Source of the DNA: Ectocarpus siliculosus
Taxonomy: Eukaryota > Sar > Phaeophyceae > Ectocarpales > Ectocarpaceae
NCBI GenBank assembly: GCA_000310025.1
Contig: FN649750.1
Span: 1,480,302 to 1,544,301 of the forward strand
Direction of reading: 5' to 3'
DNA: 64,000 nucleotides
The position numbers were made by a program, and so were the translations under genes. Positions within the stretch are counted from its first letter, which is position 1; the number at the start of each line of letters is the position of its first letter. Below the pieces are notes generated by a model. It ran no database searches. It was given only the letters and a program-made list of their open reading frames with translations, and was not told the origin of the DNA. Of this stretch, positions 15,638 through 35,513 are shown in pieces.

Positions 15638-15946
15638 TGTAATGGTATTTGACCCCTTCCTTCAGAATCAATCACCTTTGAGCTGTGTGGAACTCTCTTG
15701 TCCGACCACAGTAGCAGGTTGTTGTTGCTTTCCGTTGTTCTCTTTCTCTTGATTAACGCTTTCCAAGCCAACTCACAATATCCCACGCACACACGATCAT
15801 AGATCGCCTGTACGCACACACTGAACAGAAGGGCACATGTCTCGGCATAAAGCCCTGATCTAGCATGACGTCACGTCTCATCATCCGACGGCGCCAAATA
15901 ACCATGATCAACCACGATCACTTGTCTACCTCCAAATACCATAACA
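15638..15946 (-). repeat. 3' LTR of the Ty3 element
   Basis: 309 bp with terminal inverted motif TGT(A/T)ATGGTATTTG. The preceding minus-strand sequence CAGGGTGGGCTAT is a weak polypurine-tract candidate. Confidence 0.9.
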
Positions 15947-17291
15947 ATAGCCCACCCTGAGTGGACGTAGATGCAGATACAGAAGCAAACCTCGGAGGGA
16001 CTCTAGTCAATCAAGAGGATTGCGGGATGGATCGAAGATACGACAACTCAAAACCCTCACCCGCACCTCTCCGTTAACCAAACCAAAGAAGCGGAACCAA
16101 GAAAGAAGAAAACACAGAAGCCGGGGCGGCAAAGTCGGTGGATAAAATCGGTAAAAGGCACATGGGTGCGAAAAATAACCAAAACATCCGAACCGAAAAG
16201 ACCATAACACGAAGTAACGAAATCGTGAAGAGAAAATCACAAACGATCTCGTACGGATGAACCGATCGAATACGCAATCAAGTAAGCCAGAACCTTACGG
16301 GAAGGGGGGCTACGATGCGATCGAGTGCTGAAATGTAAACATAAAGAATAAGAAACGAAAACCGAGCCTGCAAAGGATCAAACGACATGGAAAACCGCTA
16401 GGGGTCGACCAAAATCGAGAAAAGCAGGGAAAGAGGGGGTTTCCGGGGAACGTAAACAACGGCCAAAGAAAAGGACAGGAACCAACGCCAAAAACAACGT
16501 TCGCATGTCACGATACAACGTGCTTGCGATCGGGGTGGGGCGAGGAAAACAATCCTACGTGTACGTCAAGGCCAATTGTATGAAGAAAAATGCTAAAGAA
16601 AGTACCAAGATGGAACACGTTGGCCGTGGCATGCAATAGAAGCACTGACGGAACGTTGGACCACAAAATATGCAAAGCAAACCATAGGGTGGGGAGTTAA
16701 ATGATGCACCAAATTTGGGTGTCACCGCAACTAATGACGAACCTAGGTCGCATTGAAAAATAGGTAAAGGGGAGCGAAAACTTTCGACAACCGACCGAGA
16801 AGTGACAAACGGGGCGCGAAAGTACGCAACACAAAAGCAAGAGCCAGTCTCAAAGAGATTGAGAGGGCGAGCGGAAAGCATAAAGGAGCAATAGCCAGTC
16901 TCGAAATATTCGAGAGGGCGAGCTAGAAACATGTAGAAGCAATAGCCAGTCTCGAAATATTCGAGAGGGCGAGCTAGAAACATGCAGAAGCAATAGCCAG
17001 TCTCAAAAATTGATCGAGAGGGCGAGCTAGAAACATACAGAAGCAATAGCCAGTCTCGAAAATAGATCGAGAGGGCGAGCTAGAAACATACAGAAGCAAT
17101 AGCCAGTCTCGAAAATAGATCGAGAGGGCGAGCTAGAAACATACAGAAGCAATAGCCAGTCTCGAAAATAGATCGAGAGGGCGAGCTGGAAACATACAGA
17201 CAAACATACATAAACACAAACATGTAACACACAAACATATACACATACATATACATACACATAAAACAAGGAAAACAATGCCACAGTGCTA
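15947..17291 (-). other. 3' untranslated region of the Ty3 element
   Basis: About 1.35 kb between the integrase stop and the 3' LTR. Strongly A-rich and C-poor-in-runs on the plus strand, with only short frames. Contains the hairpin tandem array. A similarly A-rich stretch follows the decayed second element at 33.1-33.85 kb. Confidence 0.7.
16844..17208 (-). repeat. Tandem array of seven 51-53 bp hairpin units in the Ty3 3' UTR
   Basis: Units begin (CCAGTCTC) at 16,844, 16,895, 16,946, 16,997, 17,050, 17,103 and 17,156. Each has a small palindrome followed by GAGGGCGAGC. Stem pairs are CTCAA/TTGAG in unit 1, CTCGAA/TTCGAG in units 2-3 and CTCGA/TCGAG in later units, so pairing is kept while sequence changes. 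Confidence 0.85.
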
Positions 17292-20021
17292 TCAGGCATC
17301 TATAGCCGTACCACGCGACTCGTCTACATTGCGTAAGATACCTCGCATGAAGGGACTACTTCGGTGCAGCTGAAGGCACCAAGAACCACAAACAGCTCCC
17401 AAAGCTGTCGTGTAGCGCGAAGGGGAGAGGGTGATCTTGACAGGTCCAGGGTCATCCAGGAAGCGAACGACGAAGACGTTTGTAGTCGGAGTATGTCCGG
17501 AGATTTTCCCTAGCCACCATAGAGCGTCTTGAGCCTTGTACCAGAAGTGTGCGCCTACAGGCAGCACGGTGTTGCGAAAACGGCGGGCCCAAACATCGCG
17601 GGGAACATATTCGTACCCGGGCGACGAGGACCGCTCGCCTTTGATGCGAGACAGTTCACGTTCCGCTGCGCCAATGCGCATGCGACGATACAGACGGTTA
17701 GTCTGCCGGTGTTGGTCGGGTGTACCAGCCCAATACAGAAGAATCTGTTTTCGGGAGTGTTGGAGGTCCATTTCTCGTTCCCACGAGGGCCGCAGAAGAC
17801 CTTTCCAGTGGGTCTCGTACATGACTGCGATAACGCCGCCACGTCCTCGAACCGACTGGTGTCCCGTGATTTTCTCAACCTCGAGCCTGCGGACAGGCGC
17901 CGAAACATCGTCCGCGGTAACATGGTACGGCGGAGACTTCGTCGTGTAGTTGTTGAGAACATACTGCGTGAGGCCTGCAGGCAAGAACCGAGGCATGTCG
18001 TCACTATCGTGTGGGTTCGCACACGGTTTGCAACGAGCGACAGAAACTCGGCGCTTGGCATCCACTCCGGGCATATCGGAGGGAAGATCCAAATACAGGA
18101 GCTTGTCAGCCACCGGGCTGCCATCGGGAGCCTTGTTGCAAGGACCGACTGCTAGGATTTTAAAAGGACCTGTCCAATTCAAGGACAGCTTCTTCTTGAG
18201 TACCTGGGAGTCAGCGTCTGCGCGGGCCTTGGAAGTGAGTTTGGCACCTTGGCGGATGGTAGCCAAATAGTTGTAGACCCACACCCAACCACCGGTAGCG
18301 TAAACGGGTAGTTTATGTAAGGCATCAGACAGTTTCGAGTTCCGTTTTTCCATACGGGAAACTGTGAGTGCGTGTTGTTCACGCACTAGCTCGTAGGAGA
18401 GCCGTTGCCGATCGGCGGCAAGGTTGCAATACTCGAGCTGATCGCGGGCAAGCGACTGGTGACCACGAGCGTAAATGTTGTCAAAAACGGTCAGTGGAAA
18501 CCTGGGAAGGCGCGCCATATGCACCTCATTGGGCGCCAATCCTGTTGCAGCGCTAACGGAGTTGTTGTACGCGAATTCAACATGAGGGAGATGAATGTCC
18601 CAATCATCTTGTCGTTCGTTCACAACCATCGCCAGCATCTGGGCCATGGTGTGGTTCACGCGCTCAACTCCTCCGTTGCCGCTAGGGTGGTACGCGCTCG
18701 TCGTAATTTTTCGGACGCGTAGCAATTTTAGGATGGCAACCGACAGTTTGGAGCAAAACTGCAATCCATTGTCAGAAAGAATGCTGAGGGGGCATCCCCA
18801 AACAGGCATGTATTTATTGACAAGGACGTCAGCTGTACCTTCAGCTGTGAACTCGGCGTCAGTCACTGCGTACATATTGGCTCTCCGACTGAAACGGTCA
18901 GTGAATAGCAAAATATACGAGAAACCTCGCGGAGTTGTGGGAAGCGGACCAAAATAGTCGACGCTAATCGCGACCCCTGGTGCCGAAGGCAGAGGGATCG
19001 TGAGAATCGGCCAGCGAATAGTCTGGCGCGCAGTTTTGCGGGCCTGACATTTCAAACATCGCCGAATCCACCAACGAGTACTGATACTCATCCCAATCCA
19101 CCAGTAAAACCTCTCAAGCAAGCTGAGCGTGCGAGCGGTACCAAGGTGGCAGAGGGCGTTGGCATGACAAGCTTGCATGACCCAAGGTCGCATTAACATG
19201 GGCACGTAAATACGAGTGGGTTCGTCATTCAACAGACGTGCAGCTCGTCCTCCGGGACGGTCAGAAGAGACCGGGGGCTTGGTATTCTTTCGTACCAAGA
19301 GGCAAAGGCCATCGTCAGTGACGAGGCGTCCTTTATCTGCAAGCTCTCGAATATCCTCCAACGAGGGTCTATGCCTGGAGTGATATGACACTCTGGCAAA
19401 GAAATCGACAGGTAGACTCTGAGGGCGTTTGAGGAGAATGTAGCGGATGGTGGCTTCACACACCGGCTCTTTCTGCTGTTCCCGCGCCCAATCTGCACGC
19501 GTGTAGCGTTCGACGGACTCACGGAATTCTAACTCTGCAGGATTGAGGACCATGGAATCCACTGCGGGCGTTGCCTTACCAGCTGCAGCAGCCGGTTGTG
19601 ACAAACCCAACAGAGGACCCGTAGGGGCGTCGGTAACCGTCTCCGGCGGCGCTATAGGCACCGTTGGGACAGGTTCGACAGCAGGCTCAGGCGTGGTGGC
19701 AGCTGGTGTCACTCGTGTTTGACGACGAGAAGCGCCTGCACGCGGAACGTGTGGGGGGATCGACAAATCAGGACCGAAACCGTAGTTTACATCGGGTTGA
19801 GGCTGACCCGCAGCAGCCGCGGTTCGGCGACGCGTACGAGTAGAGATCAGTTCCGACGGATCAATACGATGCGGTTGCAACCGAGAGGTCGAAGGCGGCG
19901 GCAATGAGTCGGCGGCATCCAAACGATCAGAGTGGGAGCCGGCGTCGACAGTTGCGGTCGCAGGAGACACGACAGGGGGCAACCGAGAGTTATCGTCGGC
20001 GGTCGTGGACAGGGAGCGCAA
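17292..20021 (-). CDS. Ty3 integrase with chromodomain and Tudor-like C-terminus
   Basis: 909 codons in the frame +1 to RT-RNase H, overlapping it by 32 nt. Domains in order: low-complexity Pro/Thr linker (about 1-165); HHCC zinc-binding region with CHANALCHLG and CLKCQARK; catalytic core with D in ISVDYFG, D in LSDNGLQF and E in GGVERVNH (DD-E triad intact); GPY-like region with WTGPFKILAVGPC; chromodomain-like segment ETHWKGLLRPSWE; then GAHFWYKAQDALWWLG with VVRFLDDPGPV, which looks like a Tudor/Agenet-type fold. The integrase inserts the cDNA, and the chromodomain is expected to steer insertion to marked chromatin. Intact in this copy. Confidence 0.9.
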   Translation of the reverse strand: MRSLSTTADDNSRLPPVVSPATATVDAGSHSDRLDAADSLPPPSTSRLQPHRIDPSELISTRTRRRTAAAAGQPQPDVNYGFGPDLSIPPHVPRAGASRRQTRVTPAATTPEPAVEPVPTVPIAPPETVTDAPTGPLLGLSQPAAAAGKATPAVDSMVLNPAELEFRESVERYTRADWAREQQKEPVCEATIRYILLKRPQSLPVDFFARVSYHSRHRPSLEDIRELADKGRLVTDDGLCLLVRKNTKPPVSSDRPGGRAARLLNDEPTRIYVPMLMRPWVMQACHANALCHLGTARTLSLLERFYWWIGMSISTRWWIRRCLKCQARKTARQTIRWPILTIPLPSAPGVAISVDYFGPLPTTPRGFSYILLFTDRFSRRANMYAVTDAEFTAEGTADVLVNKYMPVWGCPLSILSDNGLQFCSKLSVAILKLLRVRKITTSAYHPSGNGGVERVNHTMAQMLAMVVNERQDDWDIHLPHVEFAYNNSVSAATGLAPNEVHMARLPRFPLTVFDNIYARGHQSLARDQLEYCNLAADRQRLSYELVREQHALTVSRMEKRNSKLSDALHKLPVYATGGWVWVYNYLATIRQGAKLTSKARADADSQVLKKKLSLNWTGPFKILAVGPCNKAPDGSPVADKLLYLDLPSDMPGVDAKRRVSVARCKPCANPHDSDDMPRFLPAGLTQYVLNNYTTKSPPYHVTADDVSAPVRRLEVEKITGHQSVRGRGGVIAVMYETHWKGLLRPSWEREMDLQHSRKQILLYWAGTPDQHRQTNRLYRRMRIGAAERELSRIKGERSSSPGYEYVPRDVWARRFRNTVLPVGAHFWYKAQDALWWLGKISGHTPTTNVFVVRFLDDPGPVKITLSPSRYTTALGAVCGSWCLQLHRSSPFMRGILRNVDESRGTAIDA

Positions 20022-21999
20022 ATGCAGCTGTATCCGTGTGGGGTCGCGCAGACGGTCCGTAAACCGTGGCGGTGTCCCTATACAATGGTCTCATCGGAGA
20101 CACAACAGGAGAAGCTGAAGACCGGAGTGCCGGCACAGCGCCCTGTATTTTCTGGGTTGCAGCGGAAGTAACCTCAGGCACAGCAAATACGGAGTGGTCG
20201 GTGCAAGACAATGCACGATCGTCCGCAAGGTGTCGCAAAGGTCCTCGCGCATTGACGTACGGAAAAACACGAGCGACGAATTCTCCTGCAGGAGCATCAA
20301 GGTCGTCAATCCTCATTCGAGGCCCGTGTTTGCGAAAATCCGCAAAATCATCGGAAGTGAGGGGTAGCCCACCCAAAGCGGCGTTCTCGCTCGGGGGCGC
20401 CAGCCCACCCAAACCAACGCCAGGCGTGGTTTGTCCGGGTGGTGCGTGACCTGTCGCTCGGATCAGATACACACCAACGTCTTCTGGGGACGTCAAACGA
20501 CTGTTACCGTTGATGTCGGCGGCAGTAGGCTCAATCGGCAGACGAGACAGCATGTCAGCGTTTCCGTTGGAGGCACCTCGTCGGTACTCCAACGTGTAGC
20601 TGTATGCTTCAAGGAACTCAATCCAGCGTTGGACGCGTGGGTTGTGCTCGCTGATTTTTGACAAACTTTCCAGCGCCTTATTGTCGGAATAGATGCGGAA
20701 GTGTGTGCCACGAAGGTATTCGCGGAGACGCTTGATCGCCCATACAACGGCTCCTGCTTCGAGATCGAGAGCGGTCCAGTTGCGTTCAGCGTCGAGCGTG
20801 GCTCTGCTGATGAAAACGATCGGCCGTACCGAGCCGTCTTTCTGCTCTTGCTCCAGCGCGGCGCCGAGACCGTCGGAGCTGGCGTCACAGCAAAGACGTA
20901 AAGGGCGTGTACCGTCCGCAATAGCGTCCCAATCAGGAAACACTAAAATGGGCGGTTTCGCGAGCTCAGCCAGTAGGCTGCGAACAGTTGTTTCCATGTC
21001 GCTCGTGAAAGCGAAGGGAACACCTTTTTTGAGCAAGTGCGTAATGGACTTCACACGCTTGGCCATGTCTCTGAGGAAACGTCGGTAGTAGCTCAGACCA
21101 CCCATGAGTGACCTGAGTTGCTTGACGGTCGTAGGCATGGGCATACCTGCCAGGGCGGCTACTTTACGGGCGTTGGGGAGGACACCTTTCGAAGATATGG
21201 TGTGCCCCAAGAAGTCAGCCTTGGTGGTACCGATGGTGGCTTTCGAGGGAGAAAGTTTGAGGTCGTACTTTCTCAACCGTTCGAAGAGCGTGCGCATATT
21301 ACGGACATGCTGCAGTGGGCCTTCGTCAAAAACAACGACGTCATCGAGGTATGCCTCGACTCCATCGAGTCCTTTGATTACTTCGTTAATCACTTTTACA
21401 AAGTGTGCCTGCGGATTGGCTAGCACCCATCGGCATGCGGAGCCATTCGAACAAACGAGTGGGGGTCGCAAAAGCCGTAAGGGGGATAGTGTCCTTGTGG
21501 ACAGTGATCTGGTGGAAAGAACCGGTGAAATCGAATAACGAGAAAATCGAACCTCTGTTGAGTTTCGTTAGAATCTCGTCGACTCGGGGGATGGGAAGTT
21601 GACCAAAGCTGCTGATATGGTTCAACTTTCGGTAGTTAACCGTGATGCGTATTCCACCAGACTTCTTTGGTATAACCACGATGGGGCTGGAATAAGGAGA
21701 GGTCGAGTGCTGAATTACGCCAGCAGCTAGATACTGGTCCAAAATGGCATCCACTTGCTTCGCAACCAAAGGATTCATACGGTACGGTTTGGACGTCACC
21801 GGGGGACAATCCGGAGGTACTTTGATCTCAAACGGCATCAGGGAACAGGACCCTAAATCCGTCGAGGATGTGGAAAACACGTCTTGAAAATCATGCAAAA
21901 GATCACCAAGTTCTGTGATGACCTCTGGTGACCAACCACGACCGTGTAAATCAAACTTAACCAACTTCATGTGAGGCGGCAAGCGATTCCACAATGACT
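18994..21999 (-). other. Left copy of a duplicated ~3.0-kb pol segment beside the N gap
   Basis: Matches 22,100-25,105 at a constant offset of 3,106 apart from single-base differences, which cluster in the last 300 bp before the gap, and one-base indels. Best explained as two unmerged contig ends. Confidence 0.85.
19990..21999 (-). CDS. Ty3 RT-RNase H, left assembly copy (partial, frameshifted)
   Basis: Contains RT palm motifs (LFDFTGSFHQ, AYLDDVVV), connection region, and RNase H (LRLCCDASSDGLGAALEQ, FRIYSDNKALESL, SNGNADMLSRLP). A one-base difference near 21,409 relative to the right copy breaks the frame between RT (21,386-21,999) and the rest (19,990-21,471). The 5' end is cut by the gap. 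The downstream integrase begins in a 32-nt overlap at 20,021. Confidence 0.85.
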
Positions 22000-22099
22000 N
22001 NNNNNNNNNNNNNNNNNNNNNNNNNNNNNNNNNNNNNNNNNNNNNNNNNNNNNNNNNNNNNNNNNNNNNNNNNNNNNNNNNNNNNNNNNNNNNNNNNNN
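22000..22099. other. Assembly gap (100 N)
   Basis: Exactly 100 N, the usual placeholder for a gap of unknown size. Confidence 0.99.
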
Positions 22100-23127
22100 G
22101 GGATCGTGAGAATCGGCCAGCGAATAGTCTGGCGCGCAGTTTTGCGGGCCTGACATTTCAAACATCGCCGAATCCACCAACGAGTACTGATACTCATCCC
22201 AATCCACCAGTAAAACCTCTCAAGCAAGCTGAGCGTGCGAGCGGTACCAAGGTGGCAGAGGGCGTTGGCATGACAAGCTTGCATGACCCAAGGTCGCATT
22301 AACATGGGCACGTAAATACGAGTGGGTTCGTCATTCAACAGACGTGCAGCTCGTCCTCCGGGACGGTCAGAAGAGACCGGGGGCTTGGTATTCTTTCGTA
22401 CCAAGAGGCAAAGGCCATCGTCAGTGACGAGGCGTCCTTTATCTGCAAGCTCTCGAATATCCTCCAACGAGGGTCTATGCCTGGAGTGATATGACACTCT
22501 GGCAAAGAAATCGACAGGTAGACTCTGAGGGCGTTTGAGGAGAATGTAGCGGATGGTGGCTTCACACACCGGCTCTTTCTGCTGTTCCCGCGCCCAATCT
22601 GCACGCGTGTAGCGTTCGACGGACTCACGGAATTCTAACTCTGCAGGATTGAGGACCATGGAATCCACTGCGGGCGTTGCCTTACCAGCTGCAGCAGCCG
22701 GTTGTGACAAACCCAACAGAGGACCCGTAGGGGCGTCGGTAACCGTCTCCGGCGGCGCTATAGGCACCGTTGGGACAGGTTCGACAGCAGGCTCAGGCGT
22801 GGTGGCAGCTGGTGTCACTCGTGTTTGACGACGAGAAGCGCCTGCACGCGGAACGTGTGGGGGGATCGACAAATCAGGACCGAAACCGTAGTTTACATCG
22901 GGTTGAGGCTGACCCGCAGCAGCCGCGGTTCGGCGACGCGTACGAGTAGAGATCAGTTCCGACGGATCAATACGATGCGGTTGCAACCGAGAGGTCGAAG
23001 GCGGCGGCAATGAGTCGGCGGCATCCAAACGATCAGAGTGGGAGCCGGCGTCGACAGTTGCGGTCGCAGGAGACACGACAGGGGGCAACCGAGAGTTATC
23101 GTCGGCGGTCGTGGACAGGGAGCGCAA
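22100..23127 (-). CDS. Ty3 integrase N-terminal part, right assembly copy (cut by gap)
   Basis: Same protein as the N-terminal third of the intact integrase (linker and HHCC zinc-binding region, to RWPILTI), then N. Overlaps the upstream RNase H frame by 32 nt, as in the left copy. Confidence 0.85.
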
Positions 23128-24103
23128 ATGCAGCTGTATCCGTGTGGGGTCGCGCAGACGGTCCGTAAACCGTGGCGGTGTCCCTATACAATGGTCTCAT
23201 CGGAGACACAACAGGAGAAGCTGAAGACCGGAGTGCCGGCACAGCGCCCTGTATTTTCTGGGTTGCAGCGGAAGTAACCTCAGGCACAGCAAATACGGAG
23301 TGGTCGGTGCAAGACAATGCACGATCGTCCGCAAGGTGTCGCAAAGGTCCTCGCGCATTGACGTACGGAAAAACACGAGCGACGAATTCTCCTGCAGGAG
23401 CATCAAGGTCGTCAATCCTCATTCGAGGCCCGTGTTTGCGAAAATCCGCAAAATCATCGGAAGTGAGGGGTAGCCCACCCAAAGCGGCGTTCTCGCTCGG
23501 GGGCGCCAGCCCACCCAAACCAACGCCAGGCGTGGTTTGTCCGGGTGGTGCGTGACCTGTCGCTCGGATCAGATACACACCAACGTCTTCTGGGGACGTC
23601 AAACGACTGTTACCGTTGATGTCGGCGGCAGTAGGCTCAATCGGCAGACGAGACAGCATGTCAGCGTTTCCGTTGGAGGCACCTCGTCGGTACTCCAACG
23701 TGTAGCTGTATGCTTCAAGGAACTCAATCCAGCGTTGGACGCGTGGGTTGTGCTCGCTGATTTTTGACAAACTTTCCAGCGCCTTATTGTCGGAATAGAT
23801 GCGGAAGTGTGTGCCACGAAGGTATTCGCGGAGACGCTTGATCGCCCATACAACGGCTCCTGCTTCGAGATCGAGAGCGGTCCAGTTGCGTTCAGCGTCG
23901 AGCGTGGCTCTGCTGATGAAAACGATCGGCCGTACCGAGCCGTCTTTCTGCTCTTGCTCCAGCGCGGCGCCGAGACCGTCGGAGCTGGCGTCACAGCAAA
24001 GACGTAAAGGGCGTGTACCGTCCGCAATAGCGTCCCCATCAGGAAACACTAAAATGGGCGGTTTCGCGAGCTCAGCCAGTAGGCTGCGAACAGTTGTTTC
24101 CAT
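23096..24103 (-). CDS. Ty3 RNase H region, right assembly copy
   Basis: 335 codons with the RNase H motifs CCDASSDGLGAALEQ, YSDNKALESL and NADMLSRLP, then a spacer. It is split from the upstream RT frame by one extra T in a T-run at about 24,128-24,134 (seven T against six in the left copy). A sequencing or assembly error is likely, since the left copy reads through here. Confidence 0.85.
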   Translation of the reverse strand: METTVRSLLAELAKPPILVFPDGDAIADGTRPLRLCCDASSDGLGAALEQEQKDGSVRPIVFISRATLDAERNWTALDLEAGAVVWAIKRLREYLRGTHFRIYSDNKALESLSKISEHNPRVQRWIEFLEAYSYTLEYRRGASNGNADMLSRLPIEPTAADINGNSRLTSPEDVGVYLIRATGHAPPGQTTPGVGLGGLAPPSENAALGGLPLTSDDFADFRKHGPRMRIDDLDAPAGEFVARVFPYVNARGPLRHLADDRALSCTDHSVFAVPEVTSAATQKIQGAVPALRSSASPVVSPMRPLYRDTATVYGPSARPHTDTAAFALPVHDRRR

Positions 24104-27100
24104 GTCGCTCGTGAAAGCGAAGGGAACACCTTTTTTTGAGCAAGTGCGTAATGGACTTCACACGCTTGGCCATGTCTCTGAGGAAACGTCGGTAGTAGCT
24201 CAGACCACCCATGAGTGACCTGAGTTGCTTGACGGTCGTAGGCATGGGCATACCTGCCAGGGCGGCTACTTTACGGGCGTTGGGGAGGACACCTTTCGAA
24301 GATATGGTGTGCCCCAAGAAGTCAGCCTTGGTGGTACCGATGGTGGCTTTCGAGGGAGAAAGTTTGAGGTCGTACTTTCTCAACCGTTCGAAGAGCGTGC
24401 GCATATTACGGACATGCTGCAGTGGGCCTTCGTCAAAAACAACGACGTCATCGAGGTATGCCTCGACTCCATCGAGTCCTTTGATTACTTCGTTAATCAC
24501 TTTTACAAAGTGGCCTGCGGATTGGCTAGCACCCATCGGCATGCGGAGCCATTCGAACAAACGAGTGGGGGTCGCAAAAGCCGTAAGGGGGATAGTGTCC
24601 TTGTGGACAGTGATCTGGTGGAAAGAACCGGTGAAATCGAATAACGAGAAAATCGAACCTCTGTTGAGTTTCGTTAGAATCTCGTCGACTCGGGGGATGG
24701 GAAGTTGACCAAAGCTGCTGATATGGTTCAACTTTCGGTAGTTAACCGTGATGCGTATTCCACCAGACTTCTTTGGTATAACCACGATGGGGCTGGAATA
24801 AGGAGAGGTCGAGTGCTGAATTAGGCCAGCAGCTAGATACTGGTCCAAAATGGCATCGACTTGCTTCGCAACCAAAGGATTCATACGGTACGGTTTGGAC
24901 GTCACCGGGGGACAATCCGGAGGTACTTTGATCTCAAACGGCATCAGGGAACAGGACCCTAAATCCGTCGAGGATGTGGAAAACACGTCTTGGAAATCAT
25001 GCAAAAGATCACCAAGTTCTGTGATGACCTCTGGTGACCAACCAGGACCGTGTAAATCAAACTTAACCAACTTCAGGTGAGGCGGCAAGCGATTCCACAA
25101 TGACTCAAAGCTAACTCGCTGTTCAGCGCTCAACCGCTCCATCACATGCTGTGGTGGCGGCGAGGGCGAAGTGTGAGCGGGGGCAGGGGCCGCAGGGGGT
25201 GATTTCCCTGGGTCCGGCACAGGAGGATCGGTGGATCGTAGGTTGTGCACGAAGGGATCGTGGCAACGCACCTGCGGATCGACGGTCCTGTCCGCGTTAT
25301 CCTCGGTAGAACCCAAAATAGGTCCAGGCACCGAACATGAAGTGTCAGCTTCGTCACTAAACTGTTGTTCTAAATGCTCTACCGGGACGCGCATCAGCGG
25401 GGCGGCAGCAGTACCGAGCAAGTCTCCTGGCTCAAGTTCTGCAGCGCCCGCGAGCGGCACAAACTGACGCCCGTCGGAGACAAAGATCTCTTCGTTCGAC
25501 GAAACATCAGGCAACATGTCGACAAGGTATTGACCGGTCAGAGCCGGTGTACCGTTGGAACGCACCAAGTTGACTTCAATCATTTGGTGGTCGTCTAACA
25601 ATGAAGTACCCGTTGGCCCTGCATAACGGAGCTGGAATTGGTCCGCCGGGGCTGTGAAATCGGGCACATACGCGACCGCACCAGAATCATCCTGGTGGGC
25701 AAGCGTATATTCACCAAAAACGCGATTGTCCAGTGGCCTCGGAGGCAACATACGGTACGTGCGAGTGTTAAATCGCATGAAACTATCGCGTCCCAATAGG
25801 ATGGGAAACTGCATGGTGTTTGCAGGGACGATGTGCGCCCAAACGGCAAGAGAAGCCGAAGGCGTATCACCGTGGAAAAATTGCACACTCAGACGGACTG
25901 TATCAGACGTCTGAAGAGACTCGGATTTACCAAAACCTCCCCAAGAACGTGAGTTACCGTGCGATATGCAAGCCTCTGAGATGGCTCCCATGGCTTTGAG
26001 GGTACCGACAGCGTTGCTGTTGATGAACGTGGCCGGTGATCCTGAATCGAGCAGAGCGGCGCAACCATATTGTGATTTGACTGGCCCAGCGTGGATTTTG
26101 ACTCGAGTCGTAAATGAAGCGTCGTCAACTGTAACAACACCACCTACGAGGCAAGGACCATGCTCAGCGAGCAACGGTACACGATCTTCCTCATGATACT
26201 CAGCGGACGTAACCGCGAGAACTTCAGCGCTGTGATCCCTTGGAACATGCGCTGATTTTATGCGGTAACCTGACGACGGGGCGGCCTCCTCGGCGGCAGC
26301 CGTCGAAATACGCTCTTGCGTTGCAGGGTTAACCTCATGTATTGTATTCCGGAGCTGAGCGTCGGACGAAACTTGTGGTGGAAGTGTCGGCGTCGGCGCG
26401 TGCTCTCGGAGTAGGTCTCGAACAACCTGCAGGCTTTTGCCGAGCAGATTGGAGCCCCGCCATAAAGAGGGTTGGATTGCAGCAGGATCATCCGCGCGAT
26501 GTCCAATGCCCCATATGGCATCGAATGGGCTAGCTTCGACGAGCATTTTGTCGCCGGTGCCCAAAAGATGTTGTCGCATAGCGGGATTTTGCGAAAATTT
26601 GTAGTAGGAGGCGACACGCACCACGTTTTCACGCTCGCGCTCCCAAACAGCTTCATCAAACCCTTTAACTTGGCGTCCGTAACGCTTATGTTTAATCGGG
26701 TCAGAAACACGCATAATCCGCCGCAACGTATCTTGGTCGCCAAAGAGACGAGCCTTGGCAGCCGCGAAGAATTGTTCTCCACAAGAGTATTCCACACCAT
26801 CTACAGTAAAGATGGAGGGCGTCCATTGCGAGAAAACCGACGGGGCTTGCCAGAACAACACCATGTTAGGTGTGCAGTACTCCTTGCTCGGATCAAACGC
26901 TGGTGGTGAACACCTGGCGTCGGTCGGAGGAGGAGGGTAGATACGAATACCAGCTATAGCGGAGGAGGGGGATGTCTGTTTCCCCAAGTCCTCTACTCTT
27001 CCAACAGCGCAACCCGGTGGGGGTGTATAGTCTGTAGTGCTTTCGCTAGAATCCATCACGTTGGAGACATGACGGACCTCCCTTGACGAGGGTCGCGAGT

Positions 27101-27608
27101 TTTTCGCTGTTTGTTCAGCGAGGGGCGCAATCGGAGCGTCCTCCGAATACGGTGTTGTCAGCACCTCCGTGGTCGCGGTTGGGGACCGCTCAGTTTTGGT
27201 ACTCCGCGAATCGCAAACCACGGGAAATCGACGCGTATTTCTTTCAACGCAATCGGTCATACTCGCTTCACCGTGCGGCGAGTGACTTTTATTACCGTCT
27301 CGAGTTCCATCGGCTGTATCGCCGCAGGCTGTCGATGACCCGTACGTAGTGGACATGTCCAAAGCATCGCTCGAGGTGGCTAAACCCGGCGACACTTCAT
27401 GTATTGTCGACAACGTAGGTGTCTTAACGGTCTTCCACGAGGACGTCTGAGCGGACCTCTTGGGCATGCTCGACAATCCCGACCTTCCGTACCCGCACCT
27501 CAAACCGACCCTTGCATTCGTGTAGCCAACACGTAATGGTTCAGGCTGGTTTGCGGGCGGCAACGTGGTGTAATTCGTGGGTTGTTGCAAGCTGCTCGAG
27601 CTGTGTTA
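24072..27608 (-). CDS. Ty3 Pol: NADAR domain, aspartic protease, reverse transcriptase
   Basis: Open from just after a TAA near 27,610; numbering below is from codon 27,590. Residues 1-235 are low complexity. Residues 241-396 form a NADAR (YbiA/DUF1768) domain: FTVDGVEYSCGEQFF (conserved Glu272), DPIKHKRYGRQVKGFDE, YYKFSQNPAMR, LVEASPFDAIWGIG, WRGSNLLG. Residues 505-610 are a retropepsin-like protease with ALLDSGSPATFI (Asp515) and ILLGRDS. RT spans about 885-1150 with IPKKSGGIRITVNYRKLN, FDFTGSFHQ and the catalytic YLDD at 1045-1048. The ORF stops at 24,072 only because of the extra T near 24,130. Pol lies -1 relative to the Gag-extension frame, overlapping it at 27,500-27,608. Confidence 0.9.
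26403..26870 (-). other. NADAR (YbiA-like) domain within Ty3 Pol
   Basis: Full-length domain (about 155 residues) with all the conserved blocks of the family, in frame with the protease and RT and without stops. NADAR proteins act on ADP-ribose or N-glycosidic bonds, and members have been reported to remove ADP-ribose from guanine. A role for it in a retrotransposon is inference. Confidence 0.85.
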
Positions 27609-28006
27609 AAACTCGGGGAGCCGCCTTCAAGACAGGTCGCTCCTTGAGTTCCTAACCTTGGGGTATATTTACTGACGACAGCGCTGAAGCTGTCGCGTGT
27701 GCAAGCTGCTCGAGCTGTGTTAAAACTCGGGGAGCCGCCTTCAAGACAGGTCGCTCCTTGAGTTCCTAACCTTGGGGTATATGCATTGACGACAGCGCTG
27801 AAGCTGCCGTGATCGGGAGTGTGGGCTACACCATCTTCACCCGATGAGGTCGAAGCACTACCGCTTGTAGCGGAAGTGTCGGTTGTAGGAACAGGAGTGG
27901 TACACTCGACCGTACCTACTATACGCGCATCCTGCGACACATATCTAGCTGCTCCCTGTTTTGCCATCGGCGGGTCGGGGAGTAACGACAAGCCGCCGTT
28001 GGGCTG
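27500..28006 (-). CDS. Gag-frame extension beyond the UGA stop
   Basis: The Gag frame ends in UGA at 28,007-28,009 but stays open to 27,500. The extension encodes a Ser/Thr-rich spacer with a 38-residue tandem duplication (TPRLGTQGATCLEGG twice). It overlaps the start of the Pol frame by about 100 nt. Translation would need readthrough followed by -1 frameshifting; it could also be untranslated. Confidence 0.4.
   Translation of the reverse strand, partial: QPNGGLSLLPDPPMAKQGAARYVSQDARIVGTVECTTPVPTTDTSATSGSASTSSGEDGVAHTPDHGSFSAVVNAYTPRLGTQGATCLEGGSPSFNTARAACTRDSFSAVVSKYTPRLGTQGATCLEGGSPSFNTARAACNNPRITPRCRPQTSLNHYVLATRMQGSV
27586..27813. repeat. 114-bp tandem duplication
   Basis: TGCAAGCTGCTCGAG begins at 27,586 and again at 27,700, with near-identical sequence between. 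114 bp is 38 codons, so it leaves the frame unchanged. Confidence 0.85.
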
Positions 28007-31000
28007 TCAGTTACCAGCATTATACGTTCCAGGAGTGCGGGCATTTGGGTTGGAGTCTACGGGGAGTCGGCTGTTGATTCTTAACGCCGGCTGCGCGTGT
28101 GTGGCAGACGCTGGAGCAGTGCCTGCATGAGGCTGGTATGCTACCAATGTGTGCTGTTGGGCTGGTGCACTAGATTGCAGCAGGCCCTGTGGTGGCGGTT
28201 GATGCCACGTCTGAGTGTATTGTTGCGGGTTTGGAGCGTTACCAGCGTATTGAACTCTATGAGCTGTTCTGTGGGAACGGCGCCGGTTTTGTTGGCCATT
28301 CGAGTTGCGTGAGCCGTGTGTTGTGGCAGTCGAAGGCTTAGTCCTCCAGGACCGCAAGCGCTCTTGCCACAGGCGAAACATGTCATCACCATCAGTCAGT
28401 GCACCTAAATCTGGGTTCAGTACACCACTAGCATTGGTGAAAGGCTGTTCACAGTGTTTGATGGAGTGGCCAGACCCGTGACAGTTTAAACAACGGCCAG
28501 CATTCGCGCTGAACGCTTGTGCTCGGTCAGCTCTAGTCCTAAGGAGTGGTGTCCAAAGGGGGGGGAGTTGACGTTTGAAACCACTGGAAACAACAGCATG
28601 CACTGTCTCCCAATGATCATCGGTGGCCAGCGGCCAAGCATCGTAGCTAACACAAAACACATCATGAATTGGCTCTGCCTTAACACGCATGACCGATTTG
28701 CCACGTGCTCCCTGGGAGCTCCAAGGCTGCTGCGATTGCGTCGTCGACCGTCCTTGAGAACGACTACCGCCTTGCGAATGCAACGATAATCCACTAAGCG
28801 AGAGCGCAGCATATTGCTCGCCATTCTCTGCCTTGACCTTAGAGGTCGTGAACTCATTCAGCACTCGCCACATCTCATCCAGACTACTGTAGGGTTCTGC
28901 CGCGGTACGCTTTGCACCCGGAAAACAGTCAGACATCATCACAGAAAACTGGTCGTTGATCTTATTCCTTGTGATCCCGACAATCCAAGTCTCGTTGAGG
29001 CTAAAAAGACTGGAATAGTGCGTGATGTTGTTCACGGCAGTACGATACTGTCGCAAAAATTCTCCAAACGTAGTTCCGTTGGGAACACCGAACGCATTCA
29101 GCGTTGTCAAGGCGTCTCCACGGTCTTCATGCTTGAAGTGGGACGCGATCAGACGAAGAAGGTGCTTGAAAGCTTCTCCTCCGTTCATACCGTCGTCCAT
29201 ACGCTGCTTCACCTGCACAAACATACCATTGATAGAGCTGATAAGGTCACCAGTGGTTTGCTTGTTTGGGGATACGGCGCTAATGATGGCTTTCTTCAGC
29301 GGGTTTTCCCACCCGCGAACCCACGTATCGGATTTGTCAAAATCGATGAAAGGGTCAGCCTGTTGCAAGACATCTAAGGCTGCAGCCTTGATAGAATCTA
29401 ACAACTGCGGCACTGCCTGTTTCAGGTTTGCCGGCCAAGGGATCGATGGTTGTATACGAATATCCCTAAACTTCGTCTTGATGTACTTCGCACTGATCTC
29501 TCTGATTCGTGCAGCTTCTGCAAGCGCGTCAGCCTTGTCTATCTCTACTTGGCGAGCACGAGCAGTCGTTGACGACAACGGTTGGGCGTTATGGCCTACG
29601 AATGCACTGTTGCGTGACATCAATGAGTGGTCGCTGGCTGCGACATCACCCAACAACGGTACTTGCCTGTCATCTCGCGGGGCTGTCAGGGGTTGGTCCA
29701 GACGCTCTTCCAGTGGAAGATCGGTGGTCAGGTGCGGTTGGTTTGCGTCAAAGATCTCCTCAGGGGAGTGATCCTCGTAGGCTGGTGCCTCCGAGCCATC
29801 GCTGCTTCGGTGCCCGCGGCGGTGTCCGCGGCGGCGTGGGCTACAGCTCCTGCTATGACTCCGGCTACGGCGGCGGCCACGACTCGTGTCCTCCTTGCTG
29901 ACGCTTTTAGTCGCCGAAGGCTTGCGTTCCACAGCGACCTCCTCTCGGCGGCCGTTGGACCCAGAGCGCTTCTTGCCACGTTTGCCTCGATTCGATCTCT
30001 TGGAGCTGCTGGCGGCCACGGAAGCCGACGCGTCACTTTCGCTAGCTGCGGAAGAGCGCGACCCTCGCGAACCACGTTGACGGTGACCGTTATGGTTACC
30101 ACGTCCACGGTTGCTGGAAGAACCTCGACCACTACCACGACCACGGCTGCCACGGCTGTGGGAGCTGCTGCTGTCGGTAGCGCGCTCCTTCTTCACCTTG
30201 CGGTGAGTGACGACACGGAAATCGCCCGTCTGCTTGGCGAATGCTGCAGAAGCACCAAACGTCGTTGGCAGAATCGAAGGGGGAAGGTACCAGTTGACCT
30301 CCGTCGGACGGTAGCCACCTGTAAGGTTAGCGTAACCTCCTCTGAGCCCGTGCAGAAGGCGCGTAACCGATTCGACTAGTGGGGCGTCTACCGTAGGGGC
30401 ATGAGCGACGTGATGCATGAATTCACGGAGAGTGACCGTAGGTCTCTCCGAGGTTTCTAACATCGTCGTCAGCACTGTAGCCGCCTTGGTGACTTGTATC
30501 CTGCATGCTTCCGTGAAGGCCTGCTGGTGCACGTGCGCGAAGTTAGACACCGGAATGTCAAGGAACAATTCATCCCCCGTTCGGAGGCTGAGATCCGGCG
30601 GTCCTTGCGCCATTTGGCTGTATGACGGTTGGGCCGGGGGCGGTACCACATAACCACCTCTCGCTATGGACAGTGGTGGATTCAGCAACAGCCCTTGCTG
30701 CTGGTATGGCATACCGTACCCCGCAGGGCCGGCGTGCTGGGGCTCGGAACCAAGCTCATTCGAGCCGGTGAGCGCCATGTGCTGCGAACCAAGTCCTGAA
30801 GGACCGGTGAGCGGGTGCTCCGCACCGAACCCCTGTGGGTCGGTGGGAGAGTTTCGCGTCGAACCAAATCCCGTAGGATCGGTGAGCGAGGGCTCCGCAC
30901 CGAACCCCTGTGGGTCGGTGGGAGGGTTTCGCGTCGAACCAAATCCCGTAGGATCGGTGAGCGAGGGCTCCGCACCGAACCCCTGTGGGTCGGTGGGAGG

Positions 31001-31220
31001 GTTTCGCGTCGAACCAAATCCCGTAGGATCGGTGAGCGAGGGCTCCGCACCGAACCCCTGTGAGTCGGTGGGAGGGTTTCGCGTCGAACCAAATCCCGTA
31101 GGATCGGTGAGCGAGGGGCTCTGCGAACCATACCCCGAAGGGTAAGGGCGAGCCTGCTGCAAACCATGCTCATTAGAGCCGGTGAGCTGGGTGAAGGTCC
31201 AACAGACGAGATTGCATTAC
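28007..31220 (-). CDS. Ty3 Gag polyprotein
   Basis: 1051 codons from 31,162, frame open from about 31,220. In order: N-terminal 25-residue repeats (SLTDPTGFGSTRNPPTD pattern) from a 75-bp DNA repeat; an Arg/Ser-rich basic region (SRGRRRSRSHSRSCSPRRR) likely to bind RNA; a capsid-like central region around WVRGWENPLKKAI, GGEAFKHLLRL and FGEFLRQYRTAVN; and a CCHC zinc knuckle CLNCHGSGHSIKHC near the C-terminus. Packages element RNA into virus-like particles in Ty3 relatives. No protease inside. Ends with UGA, after which the frame is again open. Confidence 0.85.
30805..31115. repeat. 75-bp tandem repeat in gag, about four copies
   Basis: The block GAACCCCTGTG(G/A)GTCGGTGGGAG with GTCGAACCAAATCCCGTAGG recurs every 75 bp and is nearly identical between copies. 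Multiple of 3, so all frames stay open, which also creates overlapping artefact frames. Confidence 0.9.
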
Positions 31221-31545: not shown

Positions 31546-32661
31546 TTATTCACGTGATTGTGGACGCGGGTACACAAGTGCAGCGTCACGTGCATCATGC
31601 GCGGCACCAGGCGGGGCAGGGTTGCTGGAAGCAAATGCGCCGCTGGTGGCTTGCGGTGTCTCACCATCAGCGGATCTCAGGGTATCCGACTGCTGTGAGG
31701 TCGCAGTGGTTCTCAAACTTTGACAGCGAGAACCGTCTCCATCCATCTCCGAAACATTTGTGGTGTTCTCGGAATGCGATAAAGAAGGGGTGTCGGCATG
31801 CAGCCGAGAGAACGTTTTGATAGTTTCTCGGGGGCTTGCGACAGCGAGACCAGGGGCAGAATCGCTCGAGGCGACCGCTCCGCTGGTGCGTTCTGACGTG
31901 CGTTCGACGGAGCTACTAACTCCTATCGAGTGCGTGTGTGAGGCATCGATCAAACTCGTAGAGTGAGAGCCAACACTATCCACATTCGGCACATATCCGC
32001 GCTCGGAATGGGATGCAGCCGGGCTGGCGTCGGAATAATTCAAACTCTGAGGTTCAAACATGCCGACAGCGACAGCTGGGCTACCAGGGGCAGGAGTACT
32101 AGACTCGACCGCGCCACTGGGGGCGTCCGACACGCGCACAATGGAGCTGTGAGCTTCATTCGTGTGCGTGCGTGAGGCTTCAATCAAACTCGGAGAGCGA
32201 GAGCCTTCACCATCCAATTTCGGCACATTGCTGTGTTCGGAATTGGATGCGGGGTGTGAGTGTGCGCGTTGAACCACCGAGCGCATCTGCATTTCTGCAG
32301 GTGTCTCAAGGCGGTGTGCCACATCTGATGACCAGCGGCGAGCTGAATCACGAGAGGGCACAGACCTGGAGCGCGGCGCGCGACCAAGGCCTTCAGTGTG
32401 CGATCGTGCAACATCATCTTCCTGAGAGTCTACGTCTGCTAACGTGCGTTCGAACTGCGATCGCGATCGTGGCTGCTGCTGCTGCTGCTGAAAAGTCCGA
32501 CCGCGAACATGCAAGAAGGCATTCGGCGAATCCTTATCAACACGGAGCGAGCTACGCGAAGCATGCGAATCATCATCGTCAGGAGTGTTGTGCGGCGACA
32601 AAGGGAACGGGGTCGAAGCAGCAGAGTCGCTGCTACCTCGCGGCTCATCAGGAGCCGACAT
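31546..32661 (-). CDS. Ty3 ORF1, repetitive Ser-rich leader protein
   Basis: 371 codons starting with ATG 122 nt after the 5' LTR. No known domain. Has a short poly-Gln run (about residues 58-63) and a 78-residue tandem repeat: the Ser-Glu of the repeat lies at residues 141-142, 219-220 and 297-298. The UAA at 31,548-31,546 is followed in the same frame by an open stretch in which the repeat register continues (Ser-Glu at 375-376). That stretch runs on past RRSRRLAGK to the start of Gag, which is in the -1 frame. Probably the N-terminal part of a larger Gag precursor. Confidence 0.6.
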   Translation of the reverse strand: MSAPDEPRGSSDSAASTPFPLSPHNTPDDDDSHASRSSLRVDKDSPNAFLHVRGRTFQQQQQQPRSRSQFERTLADVDSQEDDVARSHTEGLGRAPRSRSVPSRDSARRWSSDVAHRLETPAEMQMRSVVQRAHSHPASNSEHSNVPKLDGEGSRSPSLIEASRTHTNEAHSSIVRVSDAPSGAVESSTPAPGSPAVAVGMFEPQSLNYSDASPAASHSERGYVPNVDSVGSHSTSLIDASHTHSIGVSSSVERTSERTSGAVASSDSAPGLAVASPRETIKTFSRLHADTPSLSHSENTTNVSEMDGDGSRCQSLRTTATSQQSDTLRSADGETPQATSGAFASSNPAPPGAAHDARDAALVYPRPQSRE

Positions 32662-32764
32662 GCTGAAGCAGGGCCAAGGCTGTTGCCCTGCCGCTATTCA
32701 GCAGACGACTGCAAAAAAGCGAAAAAATCAAAATCAATTGAACGCAAGAATCAAGCAACACGAC

Positions 32765-32782
32765 CAAAACCAACAACGCCAG
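32765..32782 (-). promoter_or_regulatory. Primer-binding site candidate
   Basis: One nucleotide after the 5' LTR the minus strand reads TGGCGTTGTTGG, with the TGG expected for pairing to a tRNA CCA end. The tRNA is not identified. Confidence 0.45.
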
Positions 32783-33091
32783 TGTAATGGTATTTGACCC
32801 CTTCCTTCAGAATCAATCACCTTTGAGCTGTGTGGAACTCTCTTGTCCGACCACAGTAGCAGGTTGTTGTTGCTTTCCGTTGTTCTCTTTCTCTTGATTA
32901 ACGCTTTCCAAGCCAACTCACAATATCCCACGCACACACGATCATAGATCGCCTGTACGCACACACTGAACAGAAGGGCACATGTCTCGGCATAAAGCCC
33001 TGATCTAGCATGACGTCACGTCTCATCATCCGACGGCGCCAAATAACCATGATCAACCACGATCACTTGTCTACCTCCAAATACCATAACA
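32783..33091 (-). repeat. 5' LTR of the Ty3 element
   Basis: 309 bp, same sequence as the 3' LTR by eye. Right flank starts CCAC, matching the left flank. Confidence 0.9.
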
Positions 33092-33853
33092 CCACCCTGG
33101 TGGTTCTCATACGCAGATGCTTGAAACCTAGGGACTTGACAACTATGAAAGGAGTGAGGATGTGGAGCTCCAATATACCAAACTCTCCCACACCTCTCAC
33201 ACGATGAGTCGCAAGACCATCGTTTGACCCAACCAAAAAGAACGATAGAGAAGGAAAAGACGGGGGCTAGGAATGAAACAGGGGGACAATAGACACGACA
33301 AAAGAAAAAAGTCAACGCTACAAATACCATAACAAGTCGGAACCCAAAGAAAGGAAGAAAGCGTTGGGAAAACAACGTCGGAACGGCGAAAACCAACCGT
33401 ATCGACAAAACGATACAAAACACGAAGCAGTCGGTGTCATCCAAATCACTAAACGCGACGAAAACACTCACCGCTAGCCCGTATAAGCTAACCACAAAGA
33501 AAACCTAATGATGCCATAGCACTACGACGTACCCAAAAAGGTAAGAAACCAATCGTTTCGACAACGAAAACCAGGGGGCCATGACCCAACATAAGGTCCG
33601 ACGAAATCAAACCGCCGCAGGGAGCCGAACAAAAACGCTCAACCACGCGAACGGCGAAAGAAGCGAAAGAAGCAGAAATGCAGAAGGACTCGAAGGACAA
33701 GACGACGTACCAGACAGAAACAAACCGATCGCCAGAAAGACGGGAAAAAAGGGATCGAATTACCAAAACGAAGCCTAACACTGCGCTATCCAGAGGCAGC
33801 AACAGCCTACACGTACTTTCAAATGAGAGGACCGGACGAGATCAGGGGCGACC
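33092..33853 (-). other. A-rich stretch, probable 3' UTR of the decayed second Ty3 element
   Basis: Same skewed composition as the 3' UTR of the intact element, but no recognisable hairpin array or LTR. Only low-complexity hydrophobic frames. Confidence 0.4.
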
Positions 33854-35513
33854 TCAAGTCCGCAGCCCATCTGGGGATAGAACACACACATCACACAGAC
33901 AGATCCCAAGACACACACGCTTGCTAATCGGCGCGTGCCGAATCATTTGGCGGCGAATAGTCCGCTCCACGTTTCGCGACATGTTATCATTGCGAAGTCC
34001 TTTCATGAGATTGCTACCGCCGTGAACTTGAAGGCACCATGAACCGCAGACGGCAGATCCGAGGGTAGAGAAACGAACAACGGAGAGGGCGATCTTGACC
34101 GGTCCGGGGTCGTCGAGGAAGCGGACGATGTAGTGGTCGGCCCGCGCTGTCGGTCCAGAAATCTTGCCCAGCCACCAGAGTCCATCTTGAGCCTTGTACC
34201 AGAAGAACACACCCACAGGTAAAGGAGTATCGGCGAAACGACGGTCCCAGGTTGAGCGGGAGAAAAAGGAGTAACCCGGAGGCAAATGTCTCTCACCCTT
34301 AGCACGTGCCAATTCGCGTGCGGCTGCGCCAAGACGCATTGGACGGCAATGGCCATTCGTCTGACGGTGTTGATCGGGTGTACCCGTTCAATACCGGAGA
34401 ATCTGCGATCGAGAGTGCTGATGGTCCATCTCACGCTCCCAAGAAGGGCGGAGAAGACCCTTCCAATGTGTCTGATACAGAACAGCGATAACACCACCGC
34501 GACCGCGAACAGACTGGTGACCCAGAAATTTGTTCCACCTCGAGACGTTCGACCGAAGTCGAGACGTCATTTTCCGTAACATGATACGGAGGAGATTTGG
34601 TCGTATAGTTGTTTAAAACATTCTGCGTAAGACCAGCCGGCAGAAACCGTGGCAGGTCCTCAGCGTCATGCGGATTGGCGCATGGCTTGCAGCGTGCGAC
34701 CGAAACACGTCGTTTCGAGCCTTTGCCCGGCAGGTCCGACGGAAGATCCAAGTATAACAACTTGGCCTCGAGAGGACTGCCATCAGGGGCTTTCGAACAG
34801 GGGCCTACAGCCAACACTTTAAACGGACCGGTCCAAAGCAACGATAAGTTCGCTTTGAGAACCTTGTCGTCGGTGCCTGATCGAACACCGGAGCGAATGG
34901 TAGATTCGGTATTTAGATCCAAACCCAATCGCCGACGGCGTAAGTCGGAAGCTTGTCCAAAGCATCCGAGAGAACGGAATTGCGACGCTCGATCCGAGAA
35001 ATGGATAACTTGTGCTGCTCGGGTACTAGCTCGTATGCACGGCGTTGGCGATCAGCAGCGAGGTCGCACTATTGGAGATGGTCGCGATCCACACTTTGAT
35101 GACCACGAGCATAAGGATGCTCGATGACTGTCATCGGAAGGCGAGGCAAACGGTTGATGTGCACCTCATTAGGTGCTAAACCGGTGGCCGCGCTAGCAGA
35201 GTTATTCTACGCAAACTCTACATGAGGGAGATGGACATCCCAATCATCTTGCCTTTCGTTAACGACCATGGCAAGCCTTTGTGCCATAGTATGGTTAACT
35301 CGTTCGACACCACCATTTCCATTAGGATGGTGCGAACTGGTGGCCACTTTGCGAACTGCGAGACGTTGGTAAACGGCTTGTGACAGTTTCGAGCAAAATT
35401 GTGTGCCATTCTCTGATAAAAGACTCAAGGGGCAACCCCACAGAGGGATATACTGATTCACTAAAATATCTGCAGTACCTTCAGCGGGAAACTCAGCAGC
35501 CGTAACGGCGTAC
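33854..35513 (-). pseudogene. Second Ty3/Gypsy element, decayed integrase 3' portion
   Basis: Three broken frames cover the integrase of a sibling element. 35,513-35,207: MYAVTAAEF, LSLLSENGTQF (the second catalytic Asp is Glu), GGVERVNHTMAQ. 34,928-34,431: WTGPFKVLAVGPC and RRVSVARCKPCANPHD. 34,339-33,854: VFFWYKAQDGLWWLG and VRFLDDPGPV. Many substitutions against the intact element, plus frameshifts and stops. Homology ends abruptly at 35,513 in ACATGCAAGTTTT; no gag, RT or LTR found. Confidence 0.85.

Follow-up and report, generated by a model that had tools for sequence, protein, structure and literature searches.

One Gypsy lineage of Ectocarpus sp. 7, exemplified by Gypsy-12_Ec32, has been described as having an N-terminal NADAR (YbiA-type) domain in its Pol, and this lineage also carries a C-terminal chromodomain fused to the integrase (Dinatale et al. 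2025, PMC12477816). Among the matches listed in a literature search joining NADAR or YbiA with retrotransposons, this paper alone brings NADAR together with transposable elements. It also places a NADAR in ORF1 of a Tx1 LINE of oyster (PMC12477816), and NADARs occur with polymerase in the polyproteins of positive-strand RNA viruses, where they have been proposed to counter host ADP-ribosylation (PMC9503650). In these cases the same domain resides inside the protein of an RNA-copying element, although the element classes are other than Gypsy and the likeness is one of description. A further parallel is provided by an AlkB-like m6A demethylase that was captured by an orchid Gypsy element and is active in vitro (PMC9289625). 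The likeness here is the capture by Ty3/Gypsy of an eraser of nucleic-acid modification; the differences are that the chemistry is another one, that the orchid enzyme is plant-AlkB-like and encoded by an additional, separate ORF, and that it is the orchid enzyme for which activity in vitro was shown.

The biochemistry of other NADARs has been published. Four E. coli and phage NADAR types and a myxobacterial YbiA hydrolysed guanosine-ADP-ribose in DNA, and the four types were inactive on thymidine-ADP-ribose (Cihlova et al., PMC11125620). E. coli YbiA was active in vitro, yet did not rescue cells from DarT1 toxicity (PMC11125620). In the solved NADAR of Phytophthora nicotianae (8BAU), residues E125, E43, K50, R79, W89, R93, D130 and W133 are assigned to ADP-ribose contact or catalysis (PMC11543638). 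The residue at position 125 also defines class, with glutamate marking YbiA and aspartate the BC4488 class, which includes the DarT-linked NADARs (PMC11543638, PMC11125620).

We analyzed a stretch of 64,000 nucleotides of Ectocarpus siliculosus (contig FN649750.1, positions 1,480,302 to 1,544,301), referred to as the window, and all coordinates below are positions within it. A Ty3/Gypsy element spans 33091 to 15638 on the minus strand, to which all of its parts belong. The 5′ LTR (32783-33091) and the 3′ LTR (15638-15946) have TG...CA ends and are identical at 309 of 309 bp, and the same short target-site duplication, CCAC, lies beside both (33092-33095 and 15634-15637). A putative primer-binding site, read from the sequence, begins with TGG one base inside the LTR (32764-32781). 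Next come an open frame upstream of gag (31546-32697) that gave no Pfam match at E≤0.01, and a gag-like frame (28007-31216) for which a Pfam search returned no match and which contains a Gag-type zinc knuckle, CX2CX4HX4C, at 28451-28492. The Pol frame extends from stop to stop over 1177 codons (24072-27605), with an ORF of 1172 aa. An earlier note on this DNA had read the domain as part of one uninterrupted Pol frame; this holds for the leader, the NADAR, the protease motif and the reverse transcriptase (RT), but the RNase H and the integrase lie in separate stretches. The RT core (24303-24779; PF00078, RVT_1, E=6.5e-24), with YLDD at 24447-24458, is in frame with the NADAR. The aspartic protease that the note had placed after the NADAR is represented by the motif LLDSGSP (26054-26034), about 120 residues past the domain, but the region gave no Pfam match even at E≤5 and the call rests on the DSG motif; D[ST]G[SA]P is present, in some frame, in the NADAR-RT linker of 69 of the 72 copies described below. 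The RNase H (23096-24157; PF17917, E=6.5e-32) occupies its own open frame in the window copy, and the integrase frame (17292-20021) contains both the zinc-binding domain (PF17921, E=5.6e-13) and the catalytic core (PF00665, E=1.7e-9). Because RT is followed by RNase H and then by integrase, with the protease (motif only) ahead of them, the order along the minus strand is that of Ty3/Gypsy.

Compared by description, the window element resembles the published Ectocarpus lineage in carrying a NADAR in N-terminal Pol, before the protease and RT. The published chromodomain has as its counterpart, in the 3′ part of the window element, a weak hint of a Chromo match after the integrase (17730-17882, E=0.0035, 17.7 bits against a Pfam cut-off of 25.1). 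The NADAR-Gypsy arrangement to which the earlier note had drawn attention is already published for Ectocarpus, in 2025 (PMC12477816). To that description we add active-site counts, selection tests and a tree for the origin of the NADAR.

One irregularity of the window must be described before the copies are compared. Positions 18994-21999 equal 22100-25105 at 99.7% identity, and the two flank a gap of 100 Ns at 22000-22099. This 3007-bp duplication (18994-25105 in all) probably represents overlapping contig ends that were left unmerged, and hence an assembly artefact. The two readings of the duplicate are unequal by a slight difference in length. The NADAR and everything upstream of it as far as the 5′ LTR lie entirely to one side of the gap.

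The domain itself occupies 26406-26855 on the minus strand, corresponding to residues 246-395 of the Pol ORF, and matches PF08719 over its full length (E=2.6e-46, 158 bits, profile positions 2-163 of 163). The earlier note was therefore correct in recognizing a complete NADAR within the Pol of a Ty3/Gypsy element, and the conserved blocks that it quoted are found at 26783-26766 (CGEQFF), 26600-26583 (KFSQNP), 26543-26502 (the third block) and 26462-26439 (WRGSNLLG). The NCBIfam model TIGR02464 also matches (E=7.1e-45, profile 1-152 of 153). By sequence alone the domain retrieves two solved structures, 8BAU (E=1.8e-17) and E. coli YbiA, 2B3W (E=3.2e-10), and with a 33-row profile these matches improve to 2.1e-37 and 4.3e-20.

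To compare active sites, 72 copies from the genome were aligned to 8BAU, stop-bearing copies included, with the numbering anchored on the EQYF motif; under this numbering 8BAU itself shows the expected residue at all eight positions. The same residue as in 8BAU is found at the equivalent of E43 in 71 of 72 copies, K50 in 68, R79 in 70, W89 in 70, R93 in 68, E125 in 70, D130 in 71 and W133 in 71, although the choice of the 72 by a complete NADAR match favors conserved and intact copies in these counts. The two exceptions at E125 are one lysine and one stop, and by its glutamate at this position the domain belongs to the YbiA class. The likeness to the Phytophthora protein therefore extends from family membership to all eight of the compared ADP-ribose and active-site positions (PMC11543638). 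The difference is one of context, because 8BAU is a stand-alone protein with an extension of the fold, and here we are dealing with a transposon domain (PMC11543638). Judged by its residues, the NADAR is probably a catalytically competent domain of Pol.

The genome (189.5 Mb in 492 contigs) contains 87 matches to the light-harvesting family. One of these proteins is 96% identical to a EukProt entry, 95% to Ectocarpus sp. CCAP 1310/34 and 94% to Saccharina, which identifies the host as a brown alga, and hence a stramenopile; rbcL was looked for in the assembly and not found. A search of the genome with the NADAR profile yielded 150 scored matches among 230 candidates. In 122 of the 150, a scored related RT follows downstream on the same strand at a distance of no more than 6 kb, and with a second RT query a NADAR was found upstream of a related RT at 128 of 150 scored places. 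The earlier note had pointed out that a chimeric assembly would betray itself by relatives lacking the domain; the recurrence at 128 places shows the opposite. The distance from NADAR to RT ranges from 590 to 2613 bp and is mostly 1462-1816 bp. Of the 92 pairs with near-complete NADAR and RT at the usual spacing, 72 were fetched for analysis. Stop codons interrupt the NADAR in 8 of these and the RT in 5, and 59 copies are free of stops in both. Clustered by RT at 25% distance, the 59 form families of 17, 15, 15, 11 and 1. The window copy belongs to a family of 15, and the other 14 members fetched are 97.0-99.7% identical to it over the NADAR-RT stretch. Together with the identical LTRs, this supports the statement in the earlier note that the window element was recently active. 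Its NADAR also matches a database protein (P0001) on a 7.7-kb public contig, with 100% identity along 95% of the query. Over the 59 copies the mean pairwise NADAR distance is 34%, with the complete domain present.

Some copies depart from this pattern. In L094 and L095 the middle of the NADAR is shifted, and at 28 of 150 RT places there is no scored NADAR. At six of the 28 the expected NADAR position was inspected: two contain a NADAR split by frameshift, in one the element match ends 113 bp into the stretch, and the remaining three have no match to the NADAR-RT stretch. At none of the six places inspected did we encounter an element that was otherwise intact but had lost its NADAR by a clean deletion. 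Among 11 further related RT places found with the second query, five also lack a scored NADAR.

To trace the origin of the domain, 318 distinct NADAR sequences (the element copies, database matches, 68 IMG/VR and 80 bacterial sequences) were placed in a tree with midpoint rooting and FastTree local (SH-like) supports. The smallest clade that contains all 47 distinct element NADARs includes 11 other sequences (support 0.879). These are database proteins, among them P0005, from Ectocarpus sp. CCAP 1310/34, and P0006-P0008, which derive from long contigs. The next node (support 0.942) adds 77 sequences, namely four bacterial loci, all of them myxobacterial (two from Nannocystis, one from Polyangia and one from Myxococcales), and 73 database proteins, including one from Planctomycetes. 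A smaller NADAR tree agrees (support 0.812). The nearest sampled relatives are the Planctomycetes protein (60% identity) and those of Nannocystis and Polyangia (57%), along with metagenome proteins. Because the homologues sampled were the best matches to the window domain, a closer donor may be absent from the sample. A viral origin was considered and rejected. The best IMG/VR NADAR is 50% identical, against 57% and 60% for the bacterial relatives just named, and within this best-match sample the 77 neighbors of the element clade include not one of the 68 viral sequences.

Within the element clade, families 1-4 are each monophyletic, and a split between families 1+2 and families 3+4+5 is common to the NADAR tree and the RT clustering. 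L045, which is family 5, pairs with P0005 with a support of 1.0; the node uniting families 1+2 with P0006-P0008 has a support of 0.473. NADAR distances are correlated with RT distances (0.94) over the 59 copies. Since there is one element clade, its families mirror those of RT and the distances are correlated, a single capture is the simplest reading. Most simply, then, a bacterial YbiA-type gene would have donated the NADAR in a single event that preceded the division of the lineage into its five or more families, and the domain would have descended with Pol since that time.

Two further searches bear on this history. First, for five RTs at 44-46% identity the 8 kb upstream contain no scored NADAR, which is a weak sign of a NADAR-free outgroup, because related RTs also fail this list test (at 28 of 150 and 5 of 11 places, as noted above). 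Second, searches of the genome with the Pfam model and with one bacterial NADAR, read exon by exon over the 150 scored of 230 and of 238 candidates, brought up no stand-alone NADAR of the host, 22 of the 150 places having no paired RT. Two candidates for such a gene, inspected because they lacked a paired RT, were rejected: L002 proved to be element sequence and was later paired with an RT, and L256 is element sequence that shares up to 83% of its DNA positions with copies of family 2.

We turn now to selection. Recent divergence was sampled with 27 disjoint within-family pairs of stop-free copies, excluding L094, L095 and the single-copy family and skipping pairs with fewer than three differences. 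In these pairs pN/pS is 0.328 for the NADAR (bootstrap 0.245-0.429) and 0.386 for RT (0.308-0.485). For the linker, with fewer pairs, it is 0.336 with a wide interval (0.220-0.523), and the linker appears about as constrained. Medians over all pairs with an RT dS below 0.5, which are not independent and include L094 and L095, are 0.18-0.23 for the NADAR and 0.22-0.25 for RT. Older divergence gives another picture. In 28 deeper within-family pairs (16 from family 1 and 12 from family 3, with RT dS of 1.5-3) the median dN/dS is 0.176 for the NADAR and 0.022 for RT, and in 12 of these pairs it is 0.069 for the linker. In the long term, therefore, the NADAR has been less constrained than the rest of Pol. 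Of 1310 between-family pairs, 1107 show saturation at the synonymous sites of RT, and for this reason we do not rely on dN/dS in such comparisons; the uncorrected median pN/pS is 0.379 for the NADAR and 0.336 for RT. Stops, as the counts above show, are not rarer in the NADAR than in RT. Retrotransposon copies drift freely once inserted, and ratios that are far below 1 therefore imply that the lineages that are still moving keep the NADAR. As a whole, these data indicate that the domain is under purifying selection, comparable to that on RT in recent pairs and weaker than that on RT in deeper ones.

What the domain does may be approached from its context. The earlier note had suggested that an element with a NADAR could counter ADP-ribosylation by the host, and this role is plausible, the more so given the preserved active site and the purifying selection. 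The NADAR would be synthesized at the N-terminal end of Pol and would probably be freed by the adjacent protease, so that it would be present alongside the RNA and RT. There, acting on the element's RNA or cDNA, it may strip ADP-ribose from guanine or cleave a closely related N-glycosidic adduct of ADP-ribose, and this removal would protect both template and product against host ADP-ribosyltransferases or against damage that blocks reverse transcription. The substrate and the role are inferred. We give about even odds to this explanation taken whole, namely that the NADAR belongs genuinely to Pol, is probably competent in catalysis, was captured once and kept by selection, and removes ADP-ribose from the element's own nucleic acid.

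Several observations count against it. The host genome yielded four partial PARP matches and one partial macro domain match. DarT and KptA gave no match in an exon-by-exon search of the alga's own genome, so that the partner expected of a DarT-NADAR toxin-antitoxin pair was not found there. Since intron-split genes were searched exon by exon these counts are lower bounds, but the evidence for host ADP-ribosyltransferases is thin. Also to be weighed on this side are the name of the TIGR02464 family model, which refers to a riboflavin-intermediate N-glycosidase, the weaker long-term constraint on the NADAR than on RT together with the decayed and frame-shifted copies, and the failure of E. coli YbiA to relieve DarT1 toxicity (PMC11125620).

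The TIGR02464 match leads directly to the main rival, which is less probable although it deserves serious consideration. According to this reading the NADAR is a metabolic or signal-cleaning enzyme that hydrolyses soluble N-glycosides and not nucleic acid. Its substrates would be riboflavin-pathway intermediates, ADP-ribose derivatives or cyclic ADP-ribose signals, and its action would help the cell or blunt a host signal. TIGR02464 is by far the stronger of the two NCBIfam matches, and soluble ADP-ribose derivatives have been proposed as targets of phage NADARs (PMC9503650). However, fusion to Pol at a nearly fixed spacing puts the domain with RNA and RT, a fusion that a role on soluble metabolites would presumably not need, and the NADARs of positive-strand RNA virus polyproteins have been argued to act on macromolecules (PMC9503650).

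Alternatively, the NADAR might be a reader and not an eraser, binding ADP-ribose on host chromatin or proteins for targeting or packaging, with catalysis dispensable. The published lineage does possess a second candidate for reading chromatin in its C-terminal chromodomain (PMC12477816), of which the window element shows the weak hint mentioned above. The retention of the catalytic residues (E125 in 70 of 72 copies, E43 in 71 and K50 in 68) is not what such a reader would require, and the NADAR and the integrase are at opposite ends of Pol. We regard this possibility as unlikely.

It is more improbable still that the domain is a passive passenger, a fragment of a bacterial gene carried without benefit. 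Copies in decay, with stops or split frames in the NADAR, do exist, and the domain changes faster than RT in the long term (0.176 against 0.022). But the ratios of 0.33 in recent pairs and 0.18 in deeper ones are both well below 1, and the complete domain and its active site are kept over 59 copies at a mean distance of 34%, with the proviso that selecting copies for a complete NADAR favors intact ones. Finally, an assembly chimera or contamination as the source of the NADAR-Pol join is effectively refuted: although a probable assembly fault does occur in the window, with duplicated contig ends and a gap, the NADAR falls entirely to one side of it, the same join recurs at more than 100 places in the genome and again in an Ectocarpus sp. 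CCAP 1310/34 protein, P0005, and the arrangement is in print for Ectocarpus (PMC12477816).

Returning to the removal of ADP-ribose from the element's RNA or cDNA, a narrower form of this explanation would have the greatest consequences. In it, a Pol enzyme under selection reverses ADP-ribosylation specifically of guanine in the element's own RNA or cDNA, which would imply that the alga directs ADP-ribosylation against retroelements. We consider this version possible, if doubtful. To our knowledge, defense by ADP-ribosylation of nucleic acid is known solely from bacteria, against phages. If the narrower version were true, brown algae would defend themselves against retroelements by ADP-ribosylating nucleic acid. 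In the broader perspective, the capture of AlkB by an orchid Gypsy element (PMC9289625) and the present case may mean that the capture of erasers recurs among LTR elements facing their hosts. For Ectocarpus, the NADAR is an old and selected component of Pol across one lineage, with a complete ADP-ribose active site, and is more than a curiosity of a single copy. It raises the question of whether a eukaryotic retroelement must free nucleic acid of ADP-ribose and, should that be the case, what puts such marks there.

Repeats lie within the NADAR-bearing Gypsy element of the window. Tandem repeats with a period of 75 bp occupy positions 30713-31117, towards the N-terminal end of the gag-like frame, and at the junction of this frame with Pol (27586-27809) a stretch of 110 bp is repeated at a spacing of 114 bp with 96% identity. 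The interval from the integrase frame to the 3' LTR contains a tandem array of seven copies with a period of 51-53 bp (16806-17225). In addition, at 18994-25105, what are probably duplicated contig ends of 3007 bp, 99.7% identical, flank a gap of 100 Ns, and the two readings of the duplicated stretch differ slightly in length.

Inspection by eye suggested a Tudor-like appearance for the tail that follows the weak chromodomain match, at 17292-17700 (VGAHFWYKAQDALWWLGKISG...VRFLDDPGPVKI). A search of this tail for a Tudor-type domain gave no match in Pfam, nor did a sequence search of the PDB. A Tudor-bearing Gypsy element is known from another Ectocarpus lineage (PMC12477816). An integrase and C-terminal tail were also recognised by eye in a second, diverged Gypsy remnant at 33854-35779, and 34082-35515 in this remnant shares 68% DNA identity with 17424-18875 in the NADAR element.

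The genome-wide NADAR search reported matches within open frames of 10,887 codons (contig C3, 3913787-3914242) and 6,365 codons (contig C489, 435177-435536). In two element copies, L094 and L095, the ends of the NADAR are conserved and the middle retains no resemblance to the family; the surrounding open frames comprise 2346 and 1055 codons, respectively.

A few within-family pairs, involving copy L089 and element families 1 and 3, combine an RT synonymous divergence of about 1.8 and a nearly unchanged RT protein (dN of 0.03 for the pair L033/L089) with a NADAR dN of 0.18, which is higher. These pairs may represent old sublineages, or parts may have been mixed between elements.

Finally, P0082, a NADAR-only protein of 184 aa from a 1.7 Mb contig, was placed by the NADAR tree inside the element clade with the database proteins P0006-P0008. 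It may be a decayed fragment, or it may reflect takeover of an element NADAR by a host.
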